From a virus, in IMG/VR virus record IMGVR_UViG_3300045141_000101, positions 1 to 40,792 of that record: DNA of 40,792 nucleotides, one strand, 5' to 3'. How positions within the stretch are numbered: the first letter of the stretch is position 1; each line of letters starts with the position of its first letter. The notes beneath the pieces were generated by a model. That model searched no databases, was not told the DNA's origin, and worked only from the letters and a program-made list of their open reading frames with translations. This document shows positions 21,204 to 40,754 of the stretch, in pieces. Position numbers and translations under genes: made by a program.

Positions 21204-21299
21204 ATGCCCGCCACAAATACTCTGTTGACTATCAACATGATTACCGCGAAGGCTCTGGCTATACTCCATCAAAAATGTAATTTCATTGGCTCCATCAAT
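21204..21299 (+). CDS. Major coat protein, exon 1
   Basis: The first 32 codons of a P22-type coat protein (MPATNTLLTINMITAKALAI ... FIGSIN), with RBS AAGGA at 21190-21194. The frame meets TAA at 21300, inside the intron. Joining codon 32 (AAT, 21297-21299) to CGA at 22061 restores the run GSIN-RQYDDSFAQSGAKIG, which matches the usual start of this coat family. The exon end CATCAAT pairs with the intron guide GTTGATG at 21309-21315, leaving the conserved U-G wobble at the splice site. Confidence 0.8.
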
Positions 21300-22060
21300 T
21301 AATACTTGGTTGATGTAAAACCCCGTTAACTGCTGGAACACCCTTAGAGCCATGTTCGCCACAGCGCAGCCGGAAACAGCCAACGCGACGGCCGAAAAGC
21401 AATATGGATTGGGCAATCAGCATCCAAGCCGCTTGCATATGCTTGCAACTTTAAGCATGATGGTGCGGAAGGATCAACGACTAGCCGAAAGGCGTAGGGC
21501 CAAGCGGCCCGAAATGCGGGGGCTATACGTGTCACGACCGACTGGGCCATTGGCTCCGCGCTTCGCGGAGAAGGTCAGGCCGCACAAAAGCGGTTGCCAT
21601 ACCTGGATCGGCACCATCAAGTCCAACGGGTATGGTGTGATCAATGTCAATGGTCGCATCACCAACGCCTATCGTGTTGCCTGGGAATTGGCCAAAGGCC
21701 CGATCCCTGATGGCATGTGGGTGCTCCACACTTGTGACAACCGGCGTTGTGTCAATCCTGATCATCTTTGGTTGGGAACGCAGCAGGACAACATTGGCGA
21801 CATGGTCGGAAAACTTCGACACAACCATGGCGCCAGGAATGCCCGCTCGAAATTGACGGCGAAGCAAGTGCGGTTAATTCGACTAATGAGTGGAACACAA
21901 GCTGAAATCGCCGCGTGCTTCGGTGTTTCAGACGCCACGATTTGTCGAGTTCTCTCTGGTCGGTTTTGGAAACACGTACAGTAAGATATAGTCTGCTCTA
22001 CCGGGAAACCGGTAGCCGCGAAAGCGGGCCAGGGCATAGCTCCCCTGGTCGAACATATGG
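21300..22060 (+). ncRNA. Group I intron in coat gene (IA2-like)
   Basis: A 761-nt self-splicing intron. P1 forms between exon bases 21293-21299 and guide 21309-21315, with the splice after U21299. Core signatures are GGGCAATCAGCATCCAAGCC (21411-21430, P4-P6 side), TCAACGACTAGCCGAAAGG (21474-21492, P3/P7 side) and GATATAGTCTGCTCT (21985-21999, P7/P3 3' side). The last is a string I recall from the T4 nrdD (sunY) intron. P9-type hairpins follow: CTACCGG-GAAA-CCGGTAG at 21998-22015, and CCAGGG/CCCTGG near 22029-22048. The intron ends in G22060. An HNH gene is looped out between the core halves. Confidence 0.85.
21514..21984 (+). CDS. Intron-encoded HNH homing endonuclease
   Basis: A 156-residue protein (ATG 21514). 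Residues 28-100 are an HNH_3-type domain: CHTWIGTIKSNGYGVINVNG, then VLHTCDNRRCVNPDHLWLGT with the His and Cys residues of the metal site. Residues 110-156 hold a helix-turn-helix ending ATICRVLSGRFWKHV for DNA recognition. The frame is open from 21352, but that stretch lies in the intron core, so the start after the P3/P7 element is preferred. The stop TAA (21982-21984) touches GATATAGTC, so the gene fits exactly into a peripheral loop. It would cut intronless coat genes of co-infecting phages and drive intron homing. Confidence 0.8.
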   Translation: MRGLYVSRPTGPLAPRFAEKVRPHKSGCHTWIGTIKSNGYGVINVNGRITNAYRVAWELAKGPIPDGMWVLHTCDNRRCVNPDHLWLGTQQDNIGDMVGKLRHNHGARNARSKLTAKQVRLIRLMSGTQAEIAACFGVSDATICRVLSGRFWKHVQ

Positions 22061-23170
22061 CGACAATACGACGACAGCTTCGCGCAAAGCGGTGCCAAGA
22101 TCGGCAGCACGCTCCGCATCCGCCTGCCGGTGCAATACACCGTCAGCACGACGCCCGCGCTGTCGTTGCAGAACACGGTTGAAACCCAGATCAGCCTACC
22201 GATCACCAATCAGTATCACGTGGACTTCAGCTTCTCCTCGGCTGAACTCACGCTGTCGATTGACGACTTCACAGCGCGCTACATCGAGCCAGCCATCGCG
22301 GTTCTCGCGGCCCAGATCGAGGCGGCGGTCATCGGCATGATGTGGCCGACCGTATGGAACCAGGTCGGCACGCCGGGTGTCGCGCAGTCGTTCAAGAACG
22401 TCCTCGTCGCCCGCAAGATGCTGCTCGACAACCTGACGCCGCAAAGCAAGCAGTGGCAGCTTCGCATCAACACACAGGACAACGTGGACCTCGTGGACAG
22501 CCTCAAGGGCCTGTTCCAACAGAGCACGCAAATCGCGCGGCAATACACCGATGGCGTCATGGGCCTCGCGGGCGGCTTCGAATGGGCCGAGAACACCCAC
22601 CTGACCACGCAAACGCGCGGCGCCGAGAACGCGGCTTACACGACGGCGATCGTGCTCAATCAGAACACGGGCGCCACCCTCGCCGTGATCACCGGAGCCG
22701 GCGCGGGCAACGCGGGCGACGTGTTCACCATCGCCGGCGTCTACCGCGTGCATCCCGAAACCAAAGCCAACTCGGGTGTGCTCCAGCAGTTCGTTCTGAC
22801 CGGCGCTTACGCGGGCGGCGGCGGCAACATGGCGATCGCGCCGGCCATCAACGCCGTGGTTGGCAGCCCGCAACAGAACGTCGCCATCCCCGTGGCCAAC
22901 GCGACGGCGGGGTTGACGTTCATGGGAACGGCGAGCGCGGCGACCGGGCTGAGCCTCGCGTACAATCCAGACGCTTTTACGTTCGCCACAGCCGATCTTG
23001 TCATGCCCGGCGGGGTCGATATGGCTTCACGCGTGGTAAAGGACGGTATCTCGATGAGGGCAGTGCGTCAATATAGTATATCAGACGATACAATGCCAAT
23101 AAGGATTGATGTGTTGTGGGGAGCCGTGGCCTTAAGGCCACAACTCGCAGTCAGGCTCGCTGCGAATTAG
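22061..23170 (+). CDS. Major coat protein, exon 2 (P22 gp5-like)
   Basis: Encodes residues 33-401 of the coat protein after splicing. It contains the typical P22 coat-family blocks RQYDDSFAQSGAKIGSTLRI, ELTLSIDDFTARYIEPAIAV and VDSLKGLFQQSTQIARQYTD. It ends with a beta-rich C-terminal region (ISMRAVRQYSISDDTMPIRI). The protein would have the HK97 fold with an inserted domain and form the icosahedral shell with the scaffold (20232-21002). Without the intron one would call a truncated gene from GTG 22130; the 23 codons before that are clearly coding. Confidence 0.88.
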   Translation, partial: RQYDDSFAQSGAKIGSTLRIRLPVQYTVSTTPALSLQNTVETQISLPITNQYHVDFSFSSAELTLSIDDFTARYIEPAIAVLAAQIEAAVIGMMWPTVWNQVGTPGVAQSFKNVLVARKMLLDNLTPQSKQWQLRINTQDNVDLVDSLKGLFQQSTQIARQYTDGVMGLAGGFEWAENTHLTTQTRGAENAAYTTAIVLNQNTGATLAVITGAGAGNAGDVFTIAGVYRVHPETKANSGVLQQFVLTGAYAGGGGNMAIAPAINAVVGSPQQNVAIPVANATAGLTFMGTASAATGLSLAYNPDAFTFATADLVMPGGVDMASRVVKDGISMRAVRQYSISDDTMPIRIDVLWGAVALRPQLAVRLAAN

Positions 23171-23220
23171 CAACGAATAAACCGACATGGTTGCTGTTTG
23201 CTACGAGGTCAGTTATCATA

Positions 23221-23243
23221 CCCCCGCCTTTAACAGGAGGGGG
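23221..23243 (+). promoter_or_regulatory. Hairpin sequestering RBS of HNH gene
   Basis: CCCCC-G-CCT, loop TTAAC, AGG-A-GGGGG: an eight-pair stem with one G-A mismatch. Its 3' arm AGGAGGGGG is the ribosome binding site of the HNH gene at 23250, so in the folded mRNA translation should be low. Similar hairpins restrain free-standing endonuclease genes in T4-type phages. Confidence 0.65.
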
Positions 23244-23249
23244 ATTGAT

Positions 23250-23834
23250 ATGATTTGCACGATCGAAGGGTGCGCCGAAACCGCGCGAGGGCACGGCTAT
23301 TGCTCGCGGCACTACACGCAATGGCGTCGGCATGGTGATCCGCTACTGATGAAGCGGCTTTATCATAAGGGGATGCCGGCGGAAGAGCGTTTCAAGGCTT
23401 TTGTTCAGAAAGGATCTGGGCCGAAAGCCTGCTGGGAATGGATCGGAGGAAAAATCTCCACTGGCTACGGGATGTTTCACCCCGCGCCCAAACAATCGAT
23501 ACTCGCGCACCGCTATGCCTATGAACAACAGCGCGGGCCAATACCGACAGGCCAGTTCTGCTTACATCATTGCGATAACAGATCATGTGTCAATCCCAGA
23601 CACTTGTTCTGCGGCACCCAGCAAGCGAACGTCGATGACATGATCAACAAAGGCCGTGATCACAAACGCGGCCTGGCGGGGGCTGAAAACCATCAGGCGA
23701 AAATCACCGAGGAAATCGTGCGAGAAATACGCGCATCTCCAACGACAGCCAAGATCCTCGCAAAACGGTATGGCGTGTCGGCGGGTCAGATTTACGCCAT
23801 CAAACAGCGCCGCACCTGGAAACACATCGAGTAA
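23250..23834 (+). CDS. Free-standing HNH homing endonuclease
   Basis: A 194-residue protein. Residues 3-30 carry a zinc-type N-terminal motif (CTIEGCAETARGHGYCSRHY) common in phage HNH proteins. The HNH_3 domain is at about 60-130 (CWEWIGGKISTGYGMF, CLHHCDNRSCVNPRHLFCGT). A helix-turn-helix with AAKRYG-like recognition helix ends in RRTWKHIE. It lies between the intact coat gene and the next head gene and is not inside an intron or intein. Its RBS is very strong but lies in a hairpin (23221-23243). It is of the same family as the intron enzyme and the minus-strand HNH genes. Confidence 0.8.
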   Translation: MICTIEGCAETARGHGYCSRHYTQWRRHGDPLLMKRLYHKGMPAEERFKAFVQKGSGPKACWEWIGGKISTGYGMFHPAPKQSILAHRYAYEQQRGPIPTGQFCLHHCDNRSCVNPRHLFCGTQQANVDDMINKGRDHKRGLAGAENHQAKITEEIVREIRASPTTAKILAKRYGVSAGQIYAIKQRRTWKHIE

Positions 23835-30700: not shown

Positions 30701-31423
30701 ATGACCATCGATTGTCCCCTGCCGCACCCCTCGGCGCTGCTCGACAACAACGGATACATGGGCTCGGCGTGGTGGGCCTGCATCAAGGCCGTCCACGAGC
30801 GCACGGGTGGCGCCCAGGGCGTCTCCAGCAAAGACATGGAAGCGGCCATCGGTAATGAGGCGGCGACCCGCGCGGCGGCTGACACAGCCCTCCAGGCGGC
30901 GCTGAACGCCGAGGCGACGGCCAGGGCCAACGGCGACAGCGCGGAGGCGGCGGCACGGGCGGCGGCTGACACCTTCATTCTGACTTATGCCCAGCAGACC
31001 AACGCGCTGCTGCATGAGACGATCACGCGTGGCGCGGCGCCGCTGGATAGTCCTCACTTCACCGGCACACCCACCGCGCCGACGCCGCCTTACGGGGACA
31101 ATGACACGTCGATCGCCACGACCCAGTTCGTCCATACTGAGTTCGCGCCGCTCGTTTCCCCGTTTTTCGGGGGCGCCCCGGCGGCGCCGAACCCCCTGGC
31201 GGGCGACAACGACAACTCGCTGGCGACCACGGCGTGGGTGCAAGGCGAAGTCGCGCGGTTCCTGCCCTATCCCGGCTCCGGCGTGACCTGGGCCGCCGGA
31301 ACCGGTGCGCCGACCGCCAACCTGGCCCGAGGCTCGCTCTGGTCCCAGGTGGACGGCGGAATTGGGTCCACACTTTGGGTGAGTGCTGGGGGAGGCGTCT
31401 GGAATGCAATTGCCGGAGTTTAG
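30701..31423 (+). CDS. Tail fibre-like protein with replaced C-terminus
   Basis: A 240-residue protein. Residues 45-100 are a coiled coil (NEAATRAAADTALQAALNAE). Residues 115-185 hold two fibre repeats of the TGTPTAPTPPYGDNDTSIAT-TQFV type, and the end is LWVSAGGGVWNAIAGV. A second, similar ending (LWVSQGGGSWLVVGGV) lies 750 bases downstream behind an inverted HNH gene. The present last codons (from about 31366) have more A/T at third positions than the rest of the gene. They may have arrived with the HNH element, substituting the original 3' end. Confidence 0.7.
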   Translation: MTIDCPLPHPSALLDNNGYMGSAWWACIKAVHERTGGAQGVSSKDMEAAIGNEAATRAAADTALQAALNAEATARANGDSAEAAARAAADTFILTYAQQTNALLHETITRGAAPLDSPHFTGTPTAPTPPYGDNDTSIATTQFVHTEFAPLVSPFFGGAPAAPNPLAGDNDNSLATTAWVQGEVARFLPYPGSGVTWAAGTGAPTANLARGSLWSQVDGGIGSTLWVSAGGGVWNAIAGV

Positions 31424-32070
31424 GCCACGTGCCGCCATCGTTTCCCAGTGAGAATGCGTCTTATGGTTTCTTTGGCAACGCCGAACTCACGGGCGATGAT
31501 CGAGACAGGGATGCCTTTTTGCCCATGATCCCGAATTACCGGGATAACTGCTTCCGTCAGTTTCGCCATGGGGTGTCCGCTGCCGTGGGTCGCCTGAAAG
31601 GGCGATCGGTTGGGTATATGCTTCCAATCCTCACCGCTCGTAATTCTGGTTATGCTGGTAAGTGACAGATTAAACATCTTGACGAACACCTCGCGAGGGA
31701 CGCCATTGGACCGTTCTGATCTTATCATCTCTATATCGGAGTTGGTCAGCTTTGTTTTGTAGTGCGCTTCCCCTCTGGACTGTCTTCCTTTTGAATCACG
31801 GTCGCGGACATTATCCAAAGATGTACCGAGGACAAGATGACCAGGATTGACACATTTCTTTATATCGCATGTATGCATTACAAACATGGTTCTGGGCGGT
31901 GTTGTTCCATGTTTCAATTCATATGCGATACGATGCGTCGAATACATTCTTCCACCAATCTTGATGGCTCCGTACCCGTTACGTCTACCCCCACCTTGCC
32001 AAAGCCAGCATTCAGCTTGTCCAGCGATTGCCACGCGGCTCCAAAATCTCGCGATGTCATTGCCATTCAT
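31420..32070 (-). CDS. HNH homing endonuclease on opposite strand
   Basis: A 216-residue protein encoded against the late operon. The HNH_3 domain is at about 18-90 (CWLWQGGGRRNGYGAIKIGG, VMHTCDIKKCVNPGHLVLGT). It is followed by two tandem helix-turn-helix units, each ending in the family signature: LTSITRITSGEDWKHI and KETIRRILTGKRWRHV. The other three HNH proteins here have one such unit. The gene is less GC-rich than its surroundings. Its stop overlaps the end of the fibre gene by four bases. It lies exactly between the present fibre 3' end and the remnant of the older one. Confidence 0.8.
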   Translation of the reverse strand: MNGNDIARFWSRVAIAGQAECWLWQGGGRRNGYGAIKIGGRMYSTHRIAYELKHGTTPPRTMFVMHTCDIKKCVNPGHLVLGTSLDNVRDRDSKGRQSRGEAHYKTKLTNSDIEMIRSERSNGVPREVFVKMFNLSLTSITRITSGEDWKHIPNRSPFQATHGSGHPMAKLTEAVIPVIRDHGQKGIPVSIIAREFGVAKETIRRILTGKRWRHVA

Positions 32071-39979: not shown

Positions 39980-40236
39980 GGGCGATCCTCCGCCATGCTC
40001 AGCGCGTCCGCCTTCTGCTCAGCCGCGCACGTCGCGCACAGAGCGAGGCTCTGGAACCACTCAGTCGCCTCGGGGTTCGGGCAGCAGTCGCAGCATAGGA
40101 AGGTGTGGCCGGTGGCGTCACAAAGCTCGCACGGGCCGGCATCCCACACGTCGGGATCGTTGCCGCCGTAACGCGAAATAAAAATCGAACCCTCTCCAGC
40201 ACACGATGTGCAAATGATTGTCAGCGGCTTGCTCAT
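39976..40236 (-). CDS. DnaJ-like Cys-rich zinc protein
   Basis: An 86-residue protein from ATG 40236 (RBS GGAGG nine bases upstream; an in-frame ATG at 40251 lies in the HNH gene). It has CTSCAGEG and CELCDATGH, the CxxCxGxG plan of DnaJ zinc modules, then CCDCC and CATC. Up to two zinc sites. It may act as a chaperone mimic or nucleic-acid binder. Its ATG uses the last base of the HNH stop (TAATG). Confidence 0.6.
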   Translation of the reverse strand: MSKPLTIICTSCAGEGSIFISRYGGNDPDVWDAGPCELCDATGHTFLCCDCCPNPEATEWFQSLALCATCAAEQKADALSMAEDRP

Positions 40237-40754
40237 TAGATGTGCCTCCAAGTCTTTCTGGTCTTGATGGAGCGAATGGTTCGTCGCGCCACGCCATATT
40301 CTTTTGCGAGTACACTTTGGCTGCGGTGATCTAATCTGATCGCCATCACGTTTTCTTCAGTAAGTTTGGCGTTGGGCTGCTTCGTGCCAACGAGGCTACG
40401 GCCACGGGTTACCATGTCCATGGAGTTGTCGGCTTTGGAGCCCGCCAGTAAATGTTCTGGGTTGCAGCATGGAGGGTTATCGCAAGAGTGACGAACGACT
40501 TGCTTGTTAATAAGGACGCCGCTGGATAGGACAAACGCGACCTGATGCGCTTGAGCCTTTTTCCCACGAACGGAAGTCACGCCATATCCGTTACCATCCA
40601 GTGGCCCTACCCACGGCCAACATTCATCTTCGTGCCCCCGATTTTCCACTGAACTCCAAAAGGCATCGATCCTCTCCGGATGAAGAGTGGGAGCCAGAGG
40701 AACAAGACGATGGTTCTGCCCGGACGGCGGCAAAGCTGGTGCTTTAGCAACCAA
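40236..40754 (-). CDS. HNH homing endonuclease, 5' end open
   Basis: At least 172 residues. The HNH_3 domain is at about 42-115 (CWPWVGPLDGNGYGVTSVRG, VVRHSCDNPPCCNPEHLLAG), with the helix-turn-helix and family end KEYGVARRTIRSIKTRKTWR-HI. The first possible start in the window is TTG 40754, but the frame stays open to 40792. It then matches the frame entering at base 1 (RQYCCQSHKSA upstream joining ...CSYC). On a circle the protein would be 243 residues with an N-terminal zinc ribbon. It heads the leftward operon behind PL. Confidence 0.75.
   Translation of the reverse strand: MVAKAPALPPSGQNHRLVPLAPTLHPERIDAFWSSVENRGHEDECWPWVGPLDGNGYGVTSVRGKKAQAHQVAFVLSSGVLINKQVVRHSCDNPPCCNPEHLLAGSKADNSMDMVTRGRSLVGTKQPNAKLTEENVMAIRLDHRSQSVLAKEYGVARRTIRSIKTRKTWRHI

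Follow-up and report, generated by a model that had tools for sequence, protein, structure and literature searches.

Positions 21300 to 22060 of the window, by which we mean the whole 40,792-nt stretch of viral DNA analyzed here (IMG/VR record IMGVR_UViG_3300045141_000101), are best explained as a group I intron of the IA2 type found in phages, both mobile and self-splicing. It separates codon 32 from codon 33 in a major coat gene of the P22 type, and its lineage appears to have moved site; we give this reading a probability of about 0.92. That the coat gene is interrupted by an HNH-encoding group I intron is supported by a covariance model, core covariation, empty sites in relatives, and the protein family. 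The anatomy, exact boundaries, empty alleles, distribution, and a co-conversion-like chimerism of exon 1 can all be read from the DNA, and self-splicing of the segment is predicted.

The coat gene and its exon junction

Coat exon 1 (21204..21299, plus strand) encodes codons 1 to 32, MPATNTLLTINMITAKALAILHQKCNFIGSIN, and ends in GGC TCC ATC AAT, after which the next in-frame codon is TAA. Exon 2 (22061..23170, plus strand) opens with RQYDDSF and supplies codons 33 to 401 and a stop codon at 23168-23170. Both codon ranges, as originally predicted, are borne out by translation and by uninterrupted relatives. Exon 2 alone matches the Pfam P22_CoatProtein profile (PF11651) with an E value of 2.4e-25 and 89.6 bits. 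When the exons are joined, these values become 7.3e-27 and 94.6 bits, against a cutoff of 24, and the alignment spans essentially the whole profile (positions 2-421 of 423), as expected for a member of the P22 coat family. The coat protein also matches phrog_283, a major head protein, and a PDB sequence search with it returned a weak match to a coat-protein domain and nothing else. Phage isolate records hold no close coat relative, all being below 60% identity.

Uninterrupted coat genes of near relatives in IMG/VR, with up to 98.5% amino acid identity, run continuously through the position of the window's junction. Among the 80 nearest IMG/VR coat relatives, the 76 uninterrupted genes readable there carry G[SA][IV]N-R[QE]Y[DE][DE]SF unbroken, a pattern that takes in GSIN-RQYDDSF, the motif that joining the exons had been proposed to restore, and close variants of it. 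An automatic splice search, which asked for a U-ending exon 1, a G-ending intron, a preserved frame, and fit to an uninterrupted homologue, gave 21299/22061 as its single solution in the window. With slashes marking the splice sites, the boundaries read CATCAAT/TAATA..TATGG/CGACAATAC, and the ligated exons are predicted to form the 24-nt junction GGCTCCATCAAT followed by CGACAATACGAC. A 5' splice site after T21300, which gains one P1 pair, was rejected; it leaves either a stop codon at the junction or an intron without a final G.

Group I intron anatomy

The intron (761 nt, 21300..22060, plus strand) matches the Rfam group I model RF00028 at 21290-22015 on the plus strand with 48.7 bits, corresponding to E values of 4.4e-11 on 1.1 kb and 1.6e-9 on the whole window. 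Up to an E value of 0.5, this is the only RF00028 match in the window. At the Rfam gathering cutoff of 50 bits the window has no RF00028 match, the shortfall being 1.3 bits, and a default Rfam scan therefore misses the intron. The covariance-model check proposed with the original prediction thus succeeds by E value and falls just short by the curated score. Homologous introns on other contigs score 61 to 79 bits, which places the window intron in the RF00028 family, and the missing match at the gathering threshold is no evidence against an intron.

The core elements lie on the plus strand. P1 (21293..21315) pairs exon sequence CAUCAAU (21293-21299) with the internal guide GUUGAUG (21309-21315) and places a U.G pair at the 5' splice site. 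The strands of P3 are 21321..21326 and 21516-21521, paired in 100% of cells, with C-G replaced by U-A in L128. P4 (21331..21336 with 21417-21422) is invariant in 13 introns, and P7 (21479..21483 with 21989-21993, GATATAGTC) is likewise invariant. P6 (21423..21424 with 21472-21473) reads UC/GA in the window versus GC/GU in relatives, so that the window has U-A/C-G where most relatives have G-U/C-G, a change compensated on both sides. Two covarying hairpins, P7.1 (21484-21493) and P7.2 (21497-21510), lie between P7 and P3, and the intron is labeled IA2-like for this reason. The 3' end carries P9 (21998-22015), P9.1 (22016-22027), P9.2 (22029-22048), and the terminal G at 22060. The P1 wobble, P9 hairpins, and terminal G named in the original prediction are thus all present in the sequence; its IA2-type core agrees with the covarying P7.1 and P7.2, the hairpins from which the subgroup is inferred.

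The structure was examined in 13 homologous cores with the open reading frame removed, using the pairing scheme read from the window. Overall, 96.3% of cells were paired, and two-sided changes occurred at 21 pairs. The covariation score was 0.348, versus 0.105 in shuffled alignments (0 of 500 reached the observed value) and at most 0.072 with slid partners. Covariation was found in six of seven P9 pairs and two of four P9.1 pairs; P9.2 also appears in the free fold. P8 was paired in just 77% of cells, and P4 and P7 never vary. P1 covaries over seven guide variants and matches its own exon in every lineage; the variants in relatives are GUCAGU/GCUGAC, GAGAGU/GCUCUC, GUGAGU/GCUCAC, UUCAAU/GUUGAA, and AUCGGU/GCCGAU. 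Free folding of the core yields P1, P3, P4, P5, P7.1, P7.2, and P9 (z -2.3). By inspection, P10 has only three base pairs, one of them G.U. The window core also carries substitutions that are rare among relatives, namely, C in J3/4 and AAC in J4/5.

An HNH gene in loop L8

The endonuclease gene lies in L8, between the two halves of the core where it had been predicted to fit. The open frame extends over 21352-21984 from ATG 21352, overlapping the 5' core. Because relatives such as L102 place an ATG in P8 at the position of GTG 21529, we take the gene as 21529..21984 (plus strand, 151 codons plus stop), with GTG 21529 as the probable start. Its product matches PF13392 (HNH_3; E 1.3e-13, 50.8 bits) and phrog_1872 (E 1.6e-30), and its TAA stop codon directly adjoins J8/7. 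As bait in IMG/VR, the intron HNH sequence retrieved only six relatives and was uninformative. Coat introns without an open reading frame also occur (L085, 320 nt; L130-L133, about 322 nt; L161, 248 nt), as expected, since the endonuclease of such an element comes and goes.

The window contains other HNH genes. A free-standing one at 23187-23834, 17 nt past the coat stop codon, encodes HNH_3 and an N-terminal CxxC-like segment, is 43% identical to the intron HNH protein over 134 amino acids, and is also found behind the coat gene in many intron-less relatives. Further relatives lie on the minus strand at 40236-40754 and 31420-32070 (38% and 34% identity, respectively).

Distribution in environmental phages

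Two subfamilies of related introns were collected from IMG/VR with exact DNA patterns. The subfamily 1 pattern, a stretch of 5' core common to the window and L037, was found in 37 stretches on 36 contigs, and P22-type coat exons surround the intron in 36 of the 37 (L107 is truncated after exon 1). This location holds even where the coat protein is only 28 to 42% identical to that of the window. The remaining stretch, L097, lies in another major head protein gene (phrog_267, E 3.7e-38), immediately ahead of GAGDKVVIRKIP, a stretch similar to GAKIGSTLRIRLP of the coat. Subfamily 2 was first met in L067, L161, and the Phenylobacterium MAG contigs L130-L133. Its pattern occurs in 99 IMG/VR stretches, and in 82 of these exon 2 of a P22-type coat gene lies no more than 460 nt downstream; because both patterns derive from coat introns, these counts reflect the fidelity of two lineages to the coat gene and not a general preference of phage introns. 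Most other subfamily 2 stretches are too short or lie in a DNA polymerase gene, a tail sheath gene, or an N4-like head protein gene. In two of the contigs, L265 and L283, the DNA polymerase gene carries an apparent intein just downstream of the intron.

An intron in a P22-type coat gene had been called unusual, a description that does not hold, as about 120 other contigs have one. Intron carriage is nonetheless patchy: two unfiltered searches, taken as an approximate measure of frequency, found an intron in 6 of the 160 closest coat genes and none in 154. P22-type coat genes give more than 593 hits in IMG/VR. Phage isolate records yielded intron DNA matches only as core fragments in unrelated genes. 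As a separate observation, partial second coat-like segments (33 to 59% identity) lie directly upstream of the intact coat gene in L053, L054, L056, L057, L071-L075, L077, and L013, as if a coat duplication were decaying.

The nearest cellular coat genes are 50 to 51% identical, in Phenylobacterium and Alphaproteobacteria MAG contigs; one in a Hydrogenedentes MAG is 53% identical. The alphaproteobacterial host given in the original prediction is plausible, the grounds for it being those 50-51% identical genes.

Insertion sites and site change

Introns occupy at least five positions between codons 19 and 48 (window codon numbering). Subfamily 2 introns are found at codon 20 phase 2 in about 70 contigs, after codon 29 in L067, L216, and L275, and at codon 35 phase 1 in L229, L239, and L263. 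Of subfamily 1, 31 introns share the codon 35 phase 1 site; those after codon 32 are in the window, L082 with L098, and L083. Single introns lie after codon 47 (L091) and after codon 19 (L295). L292 and L306, with clearly wrong automatic solutions, and L130 and L224, with numbers shifted by the anchor, were not counted as extra sites. Four coat genes (L237, L261, L266, and L267) apparently contain two group I introns each, with a mini-exon of about 35 nt left between them. Mobile introns appear to have landed in this stretch of the gene repeatedly, since more than 100 related environmental phages have similar introns there.

The window intron clusters with those of L093 and L095, which are inserted at codon 35 phase 1; support is 100/99 when the 5' core is used and 87/85 with the whole core. 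The whole introns, HNH gene included, share about 73% DNA identity. This grouping with introns inserted 7 nt downstream suggests that an intron lineage changed site. A single clade of all codon-32 introns was disfavored, marginally (AU p 0.048 and 0.028), and a separate origin of the codon-32 introns is accordingly given marginal support by the trees. RTCAAT and GTCAGT, the two P1 targets, nearly repeat each other at a distance of 7 nt within the codons for (I/V)-N-R-Q-Y, so a switch between the sites would need one or two guide changes. We judge it somewhat probable that the first 50 codons of P22-type coat genes are a standing niche for mobile group I introns in environmental phages, used by two subfamilies at five or more sites, in which lineages re-target by a few nucleotides with the guide re-tuned. 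Here, the move would have been from codon 35 phase 1 (CGTCAGT) to codon 32/33 (RTCAAT) through the near-repeat P1 target 7 nt upstream.

Chimerism of exon 1

Exon 1 of the window is unusually far from the corresponding sequence in nine empty relatives with at least 95.5% protein identity, from which it differs at 21 to 31 of 96 nt. It differs from that of the intron-bearing L095 at 15 of 96 nt, 6 of them in the last 48, while L095 is the more distant elsewhere. At sites informative between L095 and the empty L003, exon 1 agrees with the two in a ratio of 11 to 4 and exon 2 in a ratio of 38 to 189 (Fisher p 6e-6); over the nine empty relatives, p ranges from 2e-7 to 0.006. This chimerism could be the expected trace of upstream-flank co-conversion during homing, or it could have come from ordinary mosaic-gene recombination. 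The patchy distribution and the chimerism of exon 1 both fit intron homing.

A proposed pathway and its alternatives

In the pathway we propose, the last bases of exon 1 would pair with the internal guide in the transcript to form P1. P7 would bind guanosine, and two transesterifications, as the anatomy suggests, would join N32 to R33. The HNH protein made from L8 may act on coat genes that lack the intron, nicking or cutting them close to the junction, and repair would then copy both the intron and the exon DNA beside it. The intron's lineage is found mainly in major coat genes, where its commonest position is 7 nt downstream, inside codon 35, and it may have moved to its present site in the window with a matching guide change.

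The sub-threshold RF00028 score, several substitutions at positions nearly invariant among relatives, and a possible 346-codon open reading frame from GTG 22130 could also describe a decayed, nonsplicing relic, in which case the genome would be defective or coat protein would be made from exon 2 alone. We regard this as very unlikely: every core helix of the window is paired, P6 having changed on both strands in a way that preserves it; P1, J8/7, and the final G are all undamaged; the HNH reading frame remains open and contains a well-scoring domain; and exons 1 and 2 are in frame and conserved. Still less credible is the reading that the insertion is no intron at all, and is either an HNH gene standing on its own or a chimera made in assembly. 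Free-standing HNH genes are common here, and the one at 23187-23834 sits directly behind the coat gene in the window and several relatives; this reading is already contradicted by the group I covariance-model match on both sides of the open reading frame, by the core covariation, and by homologous introns, on dozens of independent contigs, in which P1 has been adjusted to fit the intron's own exon.

With a splicing-competent intron as the preferred reading, a further question is whether coat introns are more than selfish passengers, being kept to regulate coat synthesis or as a weapon against coinfecting phages. The HNH protein of the PhiPA3 intron hinders a competitor by cutting its intron-less allele (PMC11620839). 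The coat gene is essential, and because the intron opens with an in-frame stop, unspliced RNA gives no coat protein. We consider such a role improbable, although less so than either alternative above; 154 of the 160 nearest coat genes lack the intron, which fits a sporadic selfish element, and versions without an open reading frame exist (L085, L130-L133, and L161).

Relation to known phage introns

Phage IA2 introns, such as those of T4 td, nrdB, and nrdD and of the SPO1 DNA polymerase gene, have P7.1 and P7.2 between P7 and P3, an endonuclease open reading frame in a loop, and a 5' stop codon at the exon boundary. The window intron shares these traits and differs in its host gene and in the HNH_3-type reading frame in L8. 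Like PhiPA3 gp210, it places an HNH protein within a group I intron of a conserved essential phage gene; the PhiPA3 intron is in an RNA polymerase gene and its endonuclease activity has been shown, whereas activity in the window is suggested by sequence (PMC11620839).

The original prediction had listed terminase, polymerase, ribonucleotide reductase, and lysin genes as known locations of phage introns. That list is incomplete, as capsid genes are known as well (PMC3706429). The capsid-gene intron of mycobacteriophage LittleE has been shown to splice by reverse transcription-PCR and protein sequence (PMC3706429), and the same paper cites one in lactococcal phage Tuc2009, so a capsid-gene intron as a kind is not new. 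LittleE resembles the present case in that an endonuclease-bearing intron interrupts a major capsid gene, sister phages have the empty allele, and the intron follows a U and ends in G. It differs in its HK97-like capsid with a delta domain and its LAGLIDADG-like endonuclease gene on the opposite strand, and no recurrence at several neighboring positions, as seen for the coat introns here, is shown for its intron (PMC3706429). In Vibrio phage 1.232.O (MG592596; L127, 2441-2711), an RF00028 match of 83.1 bits directly behind the annotated major capsid coding sequence and before an HNH gene probably marks a capsid-gene intron that the annotation of this isolate missed, in another capsid family and at the other end of the gene. 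In MW202674.1 (L125), a P22 coat gene is annotated as two coding sequences separated near codon 90 by about 220 nt; this insert looks group-I-like by eye and has no Rfam match. The text of a survey of Bastillevirinae introns makes no mention of capsid genes (PMC11878797). A literature search whose reach excluded subscription papers and outside preprints found no report of an intron in a P22-type coat gene, and within that reach the intron pattern around this gene is unreported.

The present family also carries a warning for annotation, in that intron-split coat genes look truncated or missing, as with the two coat proteins of MW202674.1. Because a virion needs hundreds of copies of the coat protein, the intron has to be spliced out efficiently when infection peaks. 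With many intron-bearing and intron-less alleles and several sites within 30 codons, the choice and change of site by group I introns become directly testable, as does the effect of an intron-borne endonuclease on a coinfecting phage.
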